A DNA stretch of 34,168 bases from an uncultured Bacilli bacterium (GTDB lineage: Bacteria; Bacillota_I; Bacilli_A; RF39; UBA660): assembly GCA_944359085.1 (NCBI GenBank), contig CALVSQ010000011.1:1-34168 (forward strand), in the 5' to 3' direction. Numbering within the stretch: the stretch's first letter is position 1; each line of letters begins with the position of its first letter. Below are positions 5,549 through 10,446 of this stretch, piece by piece. The notes beneath the pieces are model-generated. The model did not search any database and was not told the DNA's origin. It saw only the letters and a list, made by a program, of their open reading frames with translations. The translations under genes and the position numbers were made by a program.

Positions 5549-5577
5549 ATTGTATCAAATATTTTTTGATATAGCAA
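5549..5577 (-). promoter_or_regulatory. Promoter of the 108-aa gene, with dyad in spacer
   Basis: TTGCTA -35 (5572-5577), 17-bp spacer, TACAAT -10 (5549-5554) with upstream TGA. A 7-bp inverted repeat (TATCAAA/TTTGATA, 5553-5559 and 5565-5571) fills the spacer and could be an operator or a weak terminator of the gene before it. Confidence 0.6.
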
Positions 5578-5579
5578 AT

Positions 5580-6968
5580 TTATTTAACTAAAACTGCGCG
5601 AGTTGAACCACTAACACTAATTCCACCATTATAACGATAGAAGAGAAACACTCCTCCAACAGCATTAGGTCCACCACTATAATCTCCACCACGCCAAATC
5701 CAAGAATTAGTCAAATCAAGCAAAACTGATGCATCACCATACCATCCACCATGTTCAATTCCAAATGTTTTTAATGTTTCTTTTGTTGCATCACCTAATT
5801 TTCCACGTCCATGGGTTGTATATGATGTACTATATGTATAAAAATTAAAATACTTACTATTTGGAATATTTTGAGTAGTAAATCCAGCATTACTTGAATA
5901 AAATATTCCACTACTATTTGCCATATTTCCCATGACATATTCCCATGCACCACCAATCATATCATATACACCATATATATTTTGTGTAGTACTTGCTAAC
6001 ATTCCTATTGATGTATTATATGCATTGCAACTACTTGATGATGAACTTCCTGATGTTGCTCCACATCCTGTTATATAACTACTATTATTATTTATTCCTA
6101 CTTCTACACACTTCCCATTTGTACATGTCCCATATTTACTATGTGAAAGGTATGCTACTGCTCCCCACTCCATATTCTTCATCATATGACTATCTCCATT
6201 TAATGAATATGTTGTACTCATATTTTGAATTGCTGTAAAAAATGCTGAAACTGTTTGATTTCTTAAACTTGTTATATTTGGTTTTATTGTTATTTGACTT
6301 GTGCTACCACTTATCTCAAATTTTCCTACCCAAAATCCTGTTAACTCTTGGTTTCCAAATGTAAAGGCAGGATGAGTATACGTACTTGTTCCATTTAATA
6401 TACTTCCATTTATTTCATCTGTACATACCTCACTACTTGTTCCAGAGCCACTCACTGCATCTACACATTTGACTGTTCCACTACTATTAGTTTCACTTTC
6501 AAATTTTATTTGTATTTCTAATGGATTTACACTGCCATTATTACCATTAAATATTGTATATGTATATCTTGGTATCCATACATACCATAATGCTATTTCT
6601 TCTTCGGTTATTGTATCACCAACATTTTTAGTAATACCACTATTTAACACTACGGCATTAGCCCATTCTTTTTTATCATAATCATACCATTCTTCTTTTA
6701 TGTCTGCATATACCCAATTATTTCCATCATAATATACTGGTATCATATTATTTAATAATTCTGGACTATTTGCTCCGCTACTATCTCTATAAGTAGTTTC
6801 TTCTTTTTCTAATTCGTTTCCATATATTTTATCCAATGTATCACTTTTAAATTTATCTATTATTAGTTTGCGACTTCCTAAGATTGCTAAAATACTAAAT
6901 ACAAGTAACAAGAATAATATCAAAATTGAGTATATTATTCCTGATACGGCAAAACCCTTTTTATTCAA
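5580..6968 (-). CDS. Pilin-like anchored protein with FGE/C-type-lectin-like tail; candidate DGR target
   Basis: A 462-aa surface protein. The start is taken as TTG at 6968 (site AGAAGGTG); a longer frame reaches the -35 hexamer and cannot be translated from this promoter. The N-terminus MNKKGFAVSG plus a hydrophobic stretch (about 7-32) resembles a type IV prepilin leader (KKG before F), but residue 5 after the cut is Gly rather than Glu. A linker and a large domain follow, with GFWVGKFEISG, MKNMEWGAVAYL, YDMIGGAWEYVMGN and SWIWRGGDYSGG, the pattern of FGE-sulfatase/C-type-lectin-fold proteins. The last ~38 residues have codons unlike the rest (CTC, CGC, CGT, TTC) and mostly end in T or C, as in variable regions of diversity-generating retroelements. 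Ligand unknown. Confidence 0.8.
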   Translation of the reverse strand: MNKKGFAVSGIIYSILILFLLLVFSILAILGSRKLIIDKFKSDTLDKIYGNELEKEETTYRDSSGANSPELLNNMIPVYYDGNNWVYADIKEEWYDYDKKEWANAVVLNSGITKNVGDTITEEEIALWYVWIPRYTYTIFNGNNGSVNPLEIQIKFESETNSSGTVKCVDAVSGSGTSSEVCTDEINGSILNGTSTYTHPAFTFGNQELTGFWVGKFEISGSTSQITIKPNITSLRNQTVSAFFTAIQNMSTTYSLNGDSHMMKNMEWGAVAYLSHSKYGTCTNGKCVEVGINNNSSYITGCGATSGSSSSSSCNAYNTSIGMLASTTQNIYGVYDMIGGAWEYVMGNMANSSGIFYSSNAGFTTQNIPNSKYFNFYTYSTSYTTHGRGKLGDATKETLKTFGIEHGGWYGDASVLLDLTNSWIWRGGDYSGGPNAVGGVFLFYRYNGGISVSGSTRAVLVK

Positions 6969-7146: not shown

Positions 7147-7971
7147 TTATTTTTTATTATTCATTTCAATTTCATAATAATTATGATTAATAGCTATTCC
7201 TAAAACAATTATATATGAAATAATATAAATCAACAACATTAAAATTGCTATATTGGCTAATCCACCATAAATAATATCATAATGAGCTACATTATTTACA
7301 TATATTGAATAAAACGTTGTAATAATTATAATTGCGAAAGTAGCAAATAAAGCACCATAATTAACATATTTACTTTTAATTGTTTTATCAGGAGCAATAG
7401 TATATATAACTTTTATAGTTATAAATATAATTATAAAAGCAATAACAGTTTTAATTAAAATAATTATTATATAGTTATTAGAAATAAATTCTCCTAATAC
7501 ACCAAACGATAATAATTTATTTAAAATAAATGAACCAAAGGCTAAAACAATTAAAACAAATACAAATAATAATAATAGCCAAAAAGTCATAAAAATTGCT
7601 TTAACTCTTCTGTAAATATAATTTTTGTTTTCTGTTTTATATAAGAAATTAGAAGCTGTTATAATACTATCTGGACCATTACTAGCAACAAAAAATCCTA
7701 TAATAACTAATACGATATTAGTGATATTAATGCCACTTCCATCAATAAAAGGTAATAATATTTCTATAACTTCTTTGGGTAAAAAATTACTTACATAATT
7801 AGTTATACTACTAGTTGATAATGACAAACTTGAAGCAACAAGTCCAAATAAACTTATAAGAGGAGCTAAGGAAAGAATTAAGAAAAATGCTAAGTTACCA
7901 GGTAAAATTAGCATTTCTGGTAACCTTAGCACATGCCATAAATCAATTAAAAATTTTTTTATTTTTTTCAT
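7147..7971 (-). CDS. YihY/BrkB family membrane protein
   Basis: A 274-aa integral membrane protein of the YihY (former RNase BN/BrkB) family. About six helices are visible (roughly 22-48, 84-102, 130-155, 163-190, 200-224, 236-260), with the family's LAFFLILSLAPL in the first helix and the GGLANIAILMLLIYIISYIIVLGIAIN end. The molecular role of the family is unsettled; some members have been linked to transport. The start overlaps the stop of the SBP-GGDEF gene by ATGA, so the two are coupled. It is the last gene of a three-gene operon. Confidence 0.92.
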   Translation of the reverse strand: MKKIKKFLIDLWHVLRLPEMLILPGNLAFFLILSLAPLISLFGLVASSLSLSTSSITNYVSNFLPKEVIEILLPFIDGSGINITNIVLVIIGFFVASNGPDSIITASNFLYKTENKNYIYRRVKAIFMTFWLLLLFVFVLIVLAFGSFILNKLLSFGVLGEFISNNYIIIILIKTVIAFIIIFITIKVIYTIAPDKTIKSKYVNYGALFATFAIIIITTFYSIYVNNVAHYDIIYGGLANIAILMLLIYIISYIIVLGIAINHNYYEIEMNNKK

Positions 7972-9995
7972 TCTTTAAAAAATTCTTCTTTATTATTTTT
8001 CATATCTAAAGTTGCTTCATTTATAGCATCATCAATTGTTTTAATTGCATCATTAATCATACTATAACCAATAGCAGCACCAAAACCATGTTTTAATTCT
8101 TTTAATTCTTTTCCTAATTTTCTCATGTAAGTAATTACTTGTTTTTCTTCATAACCTACTAAATATATTAAGAATTCATTACCGTTAGTTCTTATTATTT
8201 CACTATGCTCAATTTGATTTAAAATTAACATATTAGCAGCTTGCTTAATAACAAAATCTCCTTCAGTATGTCCATAGTTATCATTAATATATGATACATT
8301 ATTTAAATCAATTATAATTATAGTTTGTGGATATGTTTCATTACTATCCCATTTTTCAATACATTTATTTAAGTAATTTCTATTTTTTAAAGAAGTTAAA
8401 TTATCTATATATCTTAATTTGTCTTCTTTAGAAAGATTAACCTTTTTCTTTTTTGGTTTTATTTTAATAATAGCTAAAACTATTAATAATATACCAACAA
8501 TACTACCTAAAATAACTGCAACATTTTTCAAAATAATTGGTGCCTTATCAATCAATAATAAATCACTTAAACCTAACGTTATAAATTTTTGTGTATCATT
8601 AAATCTAATATAAAAATCAAAAAATTCATTAAATATTTTATTATCAGAAATATTTCTACTAACAAATGAATAATTGTCAGTATCAAATTGGTATGCTATA
8701 ATAAAATCAGTTAATTTATCGGCATAATAATTATAATTATATAAATCCATAACAATTATACTATCATTATTAAGATTATTAATTAAATCATTCATATTAC
8801 CATAAGCAGTTACTGTTATATTGTTGTTAGTAAAATATTCTGATAACTTACTGTTTTCTAACGATACAATATTATCAACTGATTTTATTGAATTAATTAT
8901 TCTATTATTAGAAGAATGTTTCAAAATAATTGCACTATTTTCATAAACAGGAACTGTATTATAAACATCTAATTTATATTCAGTAGTAGAATTAATTCCA
9001 TAAAATAAATCAATTTGATTAGAATTAAATGCTTCTAACAAACTATTTATATTATTAAATTTTTTATAACTAATCTCAGCATTAGTTAATTTAGAAAAAC
9101 TAGATAATAATTCATAATTTATACCGGTTAATTTATTATCAAATAATGTATCATAAGGAGCATTTTCAACAAAACCATAAACATATCTTTTACTTCTAAA
9201 TTTTACTGTTTCAGAATCATTTATACCTTTGAAAGTTAAATAATTTTTTGCTAAATATTTATTATATAAATCTTCATAATTATTACTAGACCATTTATTA
9301 TAATATTTTGTTAAAATTGTATTTAACTTTTCAGTACTTCCTAAATCTAATACAAAATATTTTTTATAATCACTTATATTATAAGCAATTTTATAATTGT
9401 TATCAATTAATTGTTTTAAATTTGTAGTTTTTAATAAAACGATAGCATTTAAAGTTGAATCGGTTTTATTAAATTCATTTATCAATTCTTCTTCAGTTTC
9501 AAAAGTTTTATAAGTTACATCAGCATTATGTAAATAATTATTAACATTACTTAAATTATTATTTAAAACGCCGATAGTTAGTCCTTCTAAAGAATCTATT
9601 GTTAAATAAGTTCCTTGTTTAGTAGCTAAAATGTAATTATCTTCATAAATTAAAATATTATCTTCTGCTACACTATCAACTAATTTAAATGCATATTCAG
9701 ATTTAACTTCATCACCTAATTTATAAGATACTTTATTAAATGATAAATTAGTTTCTTTATTTAGTGAATCTAAAAAATCTAATATAATTCCTTCGCCATT
9801 ATAACTTAAAATAGGAATACCATCGATTATTGACATATCAATAACATTATTTTTATTACTTTCAATCCATTGTTTTTCAAACAAATTTAAAGTTGTTATT
9901 TTATCTTCTTTAGTTAAAAAATTATATACTAAAAATCCAATTATTAGTAATACTACAACTATTGCACTTATTATAATTATTTTTTTATTCTTCAT
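7968..9995 (-). CDS. Tandem SBP_bac_3-like sensor with degenerate GGDEF domain
   Basis: A 675-aa membrane protein: N-terminal helix (about 5-27), two solute-binding-protein family-3-like lobes outside the cell (about 32-247 and 267-472; the second starts YVYGFVENAPYD and has LTGINYELL), a second helix (about 486-511), and a cytoplasmic GGDEF domain (about 531-670). The GGDEF start (DNLTSLKNRNYL) and first metal Asp (D563 in IDLNN) are kept, but the signature reads RTNGNEF (604-608 NGNEF), losing the third-position acidic residue. It is therefore probably inactive as a diguanylate cyclase. The ATG at 9995 (site AGGTGA) is chosen over a GTG at 10004. It overlaps the upstream gene by 11 nt. Confidence 0.88.
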   Translation of the reverse strand: MKNKKIIIISAIVVVLLIIGFLVYNFLTKEDKITTLNLFEKQWIESNKNNVIDMSIIDGIPILSYNGEGIILDFLDSLNKETNLSFNKVSYKLGDEVKSEYAFKLVDSVAEDNILIYEDNYILATKQGTYLTIDSLEGLTIGVLNNNLSNVNNYLHNADVTYKTFETEEELINEFNKTDSTLNAIVLLKTTNLKQLIDNNYKIAYNISDYKKYFVLDLGSTEKLNTILTKYYNKWSSNNYEDLYNKYLAKNYLTFKGINDSETVKFRSKRYVYGFVENAPYDTLFDNKLTGINYELLSSFSKLTNAEISYKKFNNINSLLEAFNSNQIDLFYGINSTTEYKLDVYNTVPVYENSAIILKHSSNNRIINSIKSVDNIVSLENSKLSEYFTNNNITVTAYGNMNDLINNLNNDSIIVMDLYNYNYYADKLTDFIIAYQFDTDNYSFVSRNISDNKIFNEFFDFYIRFNDTQKFITLGLSDLLLIDKAPIILKNVAVILGSIVGILLIVLAIIKIKPKKKKVNLSKEDKLRYIDNLTSLKNRNYLNKCIEKWDSNETYPQTIIIIDLNNVSYINDNYGHTEGDFVIKQAANMLILNQIEHSEIIRTNGNEFLIYLVGYEEKQVITYMRKLGKELKELKHGFGAAIGYSMINDAIKTIDDAINEATLDMKNNKEEFFKE

Positions 9996-10446
9996 CTTCT
10001 TCACCTACATTATTAGTCCAACTAAATGAAGAAGCACTTTTTGAATGATATCCAATAGATGGATATTGTTTATTATTTTCATTTGTTAAATAAATTTCTA
10101 TATCATAAAAGCTAGTCACTTTAGTACTCAAAGTATCTAATATAATATCACCTAATTTTTGAGCATCAGCTAATTTAGTACTATCTTTTACACTTATAAA
10201 AAATTTCATAACTGCCACATTTGTTTCGTATTTTACCTCTTCCACTAAATTTGAATCAATTATCTTTGATTTTATTTGTTCAATTACAGCATTATCAATT
10301 TCTGGAGCATTATCTAATCTATCACCATATACACTTCCACTACTTGGATAAAACATACGATAAACTGCAAAAGCCATCAAAATAAATAACACTAAACAAA
10401 TAATTCCTACAATTACAATTGTTTTATTTTTTTTCATAAACTTCAT
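9985..10446 (-). CDS. Membrane-anchored 153-aa protein of unknown function
   Basis: A 153-aa protein with one N-terminal helix (about 9-30, after KKNK) and an outside domain of mixed alpha/beta character (residues 45-135), ending in a polar GEEDEE tail. The segment VEEVKYETNVAVMKFFISVKD and the following helix/strand pattern look like a small compact fold, but I do not recognise the family. AGGAG precedes the first ATG. It is the first gene of the operon with the SBP-GGDEF sensor and YihY, overlapping the sensor by 11 nt, which suggests a shared envelope job. Confidence 0.78.
   Translation of the reverse strand: MKFMKKNKTIVIVGIICLVLFILMAFAVYRMFYPSSGSVYGDRLDNAPEIDNAVIEQIKSKIIDSNLVEEVKYETNVAVMKFFISVKDSTKLADAQKLGDIILDTLSTKVTSFYDIEIYLTNENNKQYPSIGYHSKSASSFSWTNNVGEEDEE

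Follow-up and report, generated by a model that had tools for sequence, protein, structure and literature searches.

The window gene and its protein

The window, a stretch of 34,168 nucleotides that spans positions 1 to 34,168 of contig CALVSQ010000011.1 in an assembly of an uncultured Bacilli bacterium (GCA_944359085.1), contains a reverse-strand gene whose 3' end had been read, from the sequence alone, as a variable region (VR) targeted remotely by a diversity-generating retroelement (DGR). The features at this locus are listed below, where NNY denotes codons ending in C or T and TR denotes a template repeat.

5553..5571 (-): AT-rich inverted repeat of 7 bp, located just beyond the stop codon of the window gene
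5580..6968 (-): window gene, a member of the target family; TTG start, 462 amino acids, prepilin-like N-terminus and FGE-type C-type-lectin ectodomain
5583..5729 (-): probable former VR, from a codon-by-codon alignment with the TRs of the genus
5583..6791 (-): ectodomain, AlphaFold2 model from 81 family sequences, pLDDT 95.8
5607..5684 (-): NNY-rich core of the VR, 21 of 26 codons
6864..6968 (-): prepilin-like segment LNKKGFAVSGIIYSILILFLLLVFSILAILGSRKL, without the usual Glu5
7147..10004 (-): upstream syntenic neighbours, which mark the positional orthologue in sister species
7147-7971 (-): YihY-like membrane protein, name predicted by sequence reading
7968-10004 (-): GGDEF-like protein, name predicted by sequence reading

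The TTG start is preceded by AAGAAGGTG, and the open reading frame (ORF) extends to 7022. At the other end of the gene, the VR scaffold SW..RGG......AG.F.F....G......S.RAVL is retained. The part of the tail that can be aligned with TRs covers approximately 5583-5729 and is slightly shorter than the 5580-5770 originally assigned to the VR. The codon bias described for this region was reproduced: codons ending in C or T make up 0.81 of the core at 5607-5684, versus 0.45 of the gene body and 0.50 of other genes, and 31 of 9585 windows of 26 codons in other genes (0.3%) are equally rich in them. CTC, CGC, CGT, and TTC, which had been singled out as rare elsewhere, account for 0.0002, 0.0004, 0.0023, and 0.0030 of the codons outside the tail, and all four are present in it. 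A search of the window itself found neither a reverse transcriptase (RT) nor a TR, in agreement with the sequence-only reading. The gene is fast-evolving over its full length, with 72% identity to its orthologue in the related genome G015 versus 94-97% for the neighbours. Its identity to the C2 paralogue drops along the gene from 92% to 40%, a gradient that suggests segment exchange among paralogues.

A first AlphaFold2 model, of the full-length protein, was poor (pLDDT 54) and was discarded. The ectodomain model adopts a C-type-lectin fold, that of DGR variable proteins, and ends C-terminally in the VR, as had been claimed. Its best match among solved structures is TaqVP (Z 21.8 over 245 residues), followed by TvpA (Z 13.0); Mtd of BPP-1 scores a Z of approximately 10 and true FGE enzymes approximately 11. 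TaqVP is also recovered in a sequence search with the family profile (E 2e-5), and the Pfam FGE-sulfatase model reaches 17.9 bits over 32 residues of the window protein versus a cut-off of 23.3 bits. The window gene is a member of the DGR variable-protein family.

The N-terminus of the window protein (KKGFAVSGIIYS...) has Gly-Phe and a hydrophobic helix, with Glu5 missing. Classical prepilin starts of the KGFTLIELL type are found in many paralogues, and genes for a prepilin peptidase and an ATPase of the PilB/GspE type are present in the genome. Because of these features, the ectodomain is likely displayed outside the cell.

The DGR of the genome and the target family across the genus

The genome from which the window comes (G000) is represented by 59 contigs and 1.13 Mb in an assembly that is 68% complete. 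A search of all contigs found two RTs, one on contig C32 and one on contig C42. The former lies in a DGR cassette composed of the following features.

C32:8641-9660: DGR RT (RVT_1, E 1.6e-16), with IGNYTSQ in the translation
C32:9645-9989: bAvd (PF22296, E 4.9e-18, above the cut-off)
C32:9967-10356 (-): stand-alone MutS domain I (MutS_I) ORF at locus L003, between the TR and Avd
C32:10648-10796: TR
C32:11079-12794 (-): target gene, a paralogue of the window gene
C32:11082-11230: VR of this target
Stop codon of this target: hairpin TAGCAAAC-GTCA-GTTTGCTA

The SQ form of the RT motif ([I/L]GxxxSQ) is typical of DGR reverse transcriptases. The Avd scores 68.8/80 bits with NF033474 (DivGenRetAVD). 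The prediction that a DGR with an RT and an Avd-like gene would be found elsewhere in the genome is thus confirmed by C32, which carries both together with a TR and a paralogous target. All differences between the C32 VR and the C32 TR fall on adenines: 10 of the 37 adenine sites are changed, and the 104 other sites are identical. MutS I (PF01624) is known as the DGR accessory MSL (PMC10053308), and ORFs related to the one on C32 lie next to RTs of both lineages in the genus. The RT on C42 was rejected as a DGR enzyme because of its retron-type score and because scans with the window VR found no template on its contig; it lies at C42:3253-3828 (-) (L004), and its closest NCBIfam model is retron St85 (225/235 bits). 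A search of the genome based on the sequence that flanks the C32 TR on its 3' side yielded no second TR. Scans of IMG/VR revealed, at their sensitivity, no relatives of the target or the RT, and a viral origin was accordingly set aside.

Eight members of the target family are encoded in the genome, with a conserved body and divergent last 50 residues. The C32 copy, to which the window gene is 75% identical over residues 75-478, is the only one of the eight that matches the TR. Among the seven unmatched paralogues, pairwise differences amount to 0.44, 0.41, and 0.45 at codon positions 1, 2, and 3, respectively; third positions differ as much as first and second positions, indicating that no template is common to these genes.

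The window protein has a match in all 18 genomes of the genus, and a positional orthologue, defined by its order behind the YihY-like and GGDEF-like genes, was found in approximately 12 other genomes. One TR of G007, on C76, is matched by eight genes, each on its own contig. They differ from it at 13-22 of its 38 adenine sites and 2-9 of its 100 remaining sites (Fisher p as low as 1e-12). Pairwise differences among these matched genes at codon positions 1, 2, and 3 are 0.27, 0.21, and 0.08, a signature of mutated AAY codons. TR-matched genes are present on three contigs of G003, where one more is partly decayed.

The gene at the syntenic position is itself matched to a TR of the genus in G007, with changes at 21/38 adenine and 4/100 other sites. 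For G006, G016, and G017, in which no TR of their own was found, the G014 TR was used for comparison, and changes were found at 17/33 adenine and 7/90 other sites, 17/33 and 7/96, and 15/33 and 5/96, respectively. The concentration of differences at adenines is significant for the positional orthologues in all four genomes. The locus is partly decayed in G003 and G010 and unmatched in G000, G008, G009, G012, and G015. The TR-matched VRs at the same syntenic position in sister species indicate that this locus was a DGR target within the genus. The neighbours of the window gene are 91-97% identical in G008 (92% complete) and G015 (87% complete), and in these two assemblies every VR was unmatched and a C32-lineage RT was not found, which disfavours the idea that the template is merely missing from our assembly.

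A second DGR lineage is widespread in the genus (L098, L101, L104, L105, L106, and L108; G006, G003, G015, G014, G016, and G017). Its RT is approximately 40% identical to the C32 RT, its TR/VR pairs are of another type (L098, for example, has 19 adenine differences and no others), and several of its loci include an Avd-like and a MutS_I ORF. We considered these DGRs as a source of the window template and rejected them because their TRs (L098, L101, L104-L106, L108) encode a different target type. G010 contains at least 13 family members (L122, L129, L134, L139, L145-L147, L151, L155-L158, and L171) whose VRs range from closely TR-matched to decayed, and no RT of either lineage was found in its assembly, which is 81% complete. 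At L121 (G005:C4), a second VR-like stretch (RGGNYNNGASAGLFYFGTYIGGSDFDFSARAVLVL) is located approximately 320 bases beyond the stop codon of the positional orthologue; it may represent either an ancient copy of the VR or what is left of a template.

Origin and present state of the variable region

Compared with the C32 TR, the window VR has changes at 22 of the 37 adenine sites, and 46 of the 104 remaining sites are changed as well. With the nearest TR, the differences fall on 18/33 adenine and 37/90 other sites, which is not significantly unequal (p = 0.22). We then derived a strict TR pattern of 78 bases from the window VR, in which A stays A and every other base is either itself or A, and allowed at most 3 mismatches. 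The pattern gave no further match in the genome itself (68% complete) or in its 17 relatives, so that a TR differing from the window VR at adenines only, as the remote-target proposal predicted, was not recovered there. In a positive control on the eight TR-matched genes of G007, patterns of this kind produced 0-3 mismatches for seven; the eighth produced 9 mismatches, probably because of a wrong anchor.

In BPP-1, a hairpin just past the VR, with a GRNA loop, is required for efficient homing (PMC3240598). Scoring a hairpin as a stem of at least 8 bp that starts at the stop codon, we found one behind 15/23 of the matched VRs, 6/18 of the intermediate ones, and 4/31 of the unmatched ones (p = 1.2e-4, a value to be taken as a guide because the genes are not independent). 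Most matched VRs have stems of 9-13 bp from the stop codon, and the loops of the G007-type matched VRs are GAAA or GAGA. A hairpin as a strict test of activity was rejected, given that 8 of the 23 matched VRs have none and 4 unmatched VRs have one. After the window VR, no stop-codon hairpin is present.

Because neither a template match nor a hairpin was found when both were looked for, the window gene is not to be called an active target. The proposal of a remote target survives in part: it is supported by the DGR in the genome, the variable-protein fold, and the TR-matched orthologues, whereas present-day activity finds no support, given the mismatches at non-adenine sites (46/104), the failure to find a compatible TR in the 18 genomes, and the missing hairpin. 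Our preferred reading, to which we assign a probability of roughly 0.78, is that the tail at 5583-5729 is the VR of a former remote DGR target that is now frozen.

The gene might instead be a still-active remote target of a second TR with AT-rich codons, located in the missing third of the genome. Such a private TR could indeed sit in the missing part of an assembly that is 68% complete, the VR scaffold is intact with NNY codons at template AAY sites, and more than one DGR is present in other species of the genus. We nevertheless consider this improbable, as the seven unmatched paralogues share no template (0.44/0.41/0.45), G008 and G015 are also devoid of a matched VR and a C32-lineage RT, a compatible TR was found in 0/18 genomes, and the window VR has no hairpin.

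With the adenine contrast of the window VR itself nonsignificant, its template origin is argued from codon composition and from the relatives. We examined the sites that are AAC or AAT in the templates, taking residues that can be encoded by either NNY or NNR codons and using the codon usage of the same residues in gene bodies as the expectation. In the seven unmatched VRs of the genome, NNY codons occupy 42 of 52 such sites versus 23.7 expected (z 5.8), and in the window gene alone they occupy 7 of 7 versus 3.3 expected. Lys, Glu, Gln, Met, and Trp cannot be encoded by NNY codons; these residues are found at 1 of 91 template AAY sites in the seven VRs versus 16.5% in the bodies. An NNY excess is also seen at other VR positions, as would follow from the persistence of the NNY-rich scaffold codons of the templates. 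The codon test thus supports descent from a template but cannot alone show which sites were mutated. The variable positions of the VRs are those that are AAY in the templates.

These results bear on a third reading, in which the tail, belonging to an FGE-like family, was never targeted by a DGR: it would have diversified only by point mutation, by selection, and by recombination between paralogues, and its codon bias would stem from the composition of loops. Several observations fit it: the whole gene evolves fast (72% versus 94-97% for its neighbours in G015), the paralogue comparisons are mosaic, and the adenine contrast of the window VR alone is nonsignificant. A tree of the gene bodies does not separate the loci cleanly, probably because segment exchange among paralogues blurs it. 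We regard ordinary diversification alone as very improbable, since the same syntenic gene is TR-matched with adenine-concentrated differences in several sister species, the codon test still gives z 5.8 with amino acids matched, and the variable positions coincide with template AAY sites. That the tail is a plain AT-rich coding end with a pattern due to chance has a negligible probability: NNT codons are common in an AT-rich genome and 0.3% of windows elsewhere are equally NNY-rich, but the paralogue, template, and orthologue evidence all speaks against it, and the reading is already refuted by the DGR together with the TR-matched paralogues.

According to the preferred reading of a frozen former target, one DGR of the genus, comprising the RT, bAvd, the MutS-domain accessory, and the TR, would act by adenine-mutagenic retrohoming on several genes, scattered through the genome, that encode pilin-like surface proteins of the C-type-lectin type, and the window gene would descend from such a dispersed target. 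In its lineage, the VR and the template would have separated, the stop-codon hairpin would have been lost, and the GC-rich codons of the template would have drifted toward the AT-rich usage of the host. What is left would be a fixed binding surface in which template codons are still visible, as NNY codons at AAY sites and as residual TTC, CTC, CGC, CGT, and GTG. We infer the order of hairpin loss and drift, the surface display, and the continued use of the frozen surface for binding.

Relation to known systems and implications

This arrangement has close precedents, the closest of which is Treponema denticola, where one RT and one TR are accompanied by up to seven dispersed FGE-type C-type-lectin targets (the TvpA family), leftovers are found in strains without the DGR core, and the VRs of some targets carry 'excessive mutations' (PMC4891356). 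The two systems are alike in having one TR, dispersed FGE-fold targets, and leftover and over-mutated copies. Most of the targets in T. denticola are lipoproteins, and HRDC proteins have been considered there as accessories (PMC4891356), whereas the targets described here have prepilin-like anchors, the cassette includes bAvd and a MutS-domain ORF, and the host belongs to an uncultured Bacilli lineage.

In cyanobacteria, C-type-lectin paralogues occur genome-wide and are divided into TR-matched remote variable proteins and 'VP homologs' that are too diverged (PMC7517822). Scattered paralogues, some matched and some diverged, are common to that system and ours. The cyanobacterial variable proteins are mostly predicted to be cytosolic, in contrast to the prepilin-like anchors found here, and the genes are reported to be sorted by an identity threshold, with no single locus known to be traced there from the matched to the unmatched state, as is done here (PMC7517822).

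TaqVP of Thermus aquaticus (PDB 5VF4, PMC6328139) is the closest solved fold, and the alignment extends to the C-terminal VR. Unlike the window protein, TaqVP is encoded by a prophage with a BPP-1-like DGR arrangement and is a single domain without a prepilin-like anchor (PMC6328139). BPP-1, whose variable protein is Mtd, and the DGR of the genus share adenine mutagenic homing and a hairpin past the VR, with GRNA and GAAA/GAGA loops, respectively. In BPP-1, a phage tail protein is diversified by an adjoining DGR (PMC3240598), whereas here chromosomal surface proteins are targeted in trans and the window copy is without the hairpin. What our analysis adds to these precedents is the uncultured Bacilli host, the prepilin-like anchors, and a single locus in three states across related species.

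Our results suggest that the codon composition of a DGR target can give it away when its link to the template is already gone. They also suggest that many trans-acting targets are overlooked by metagenome surveys that require a VR near the RT; such surveys are stated to miss remote targets (PMC8144416). A more speculative and, on present evidence, doubtful extension is a two-state repertoire, in which the DGR would keep scattered pilin-like receptors hypervariable while selected copies would be frozen through loss of the hairpin and of the template match, the window gene being a frozen specificity kept by selection for binding. If this were true, each genome would hold a set of fixed DGR-made binding specificities along with a few variable ones. 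One syntenic locus in matched, partly decayed, and unmatched states constitutes a natural series on the recruitment and retirement of DGR targets, and it allows hairpin loss to be asked about as a switch.
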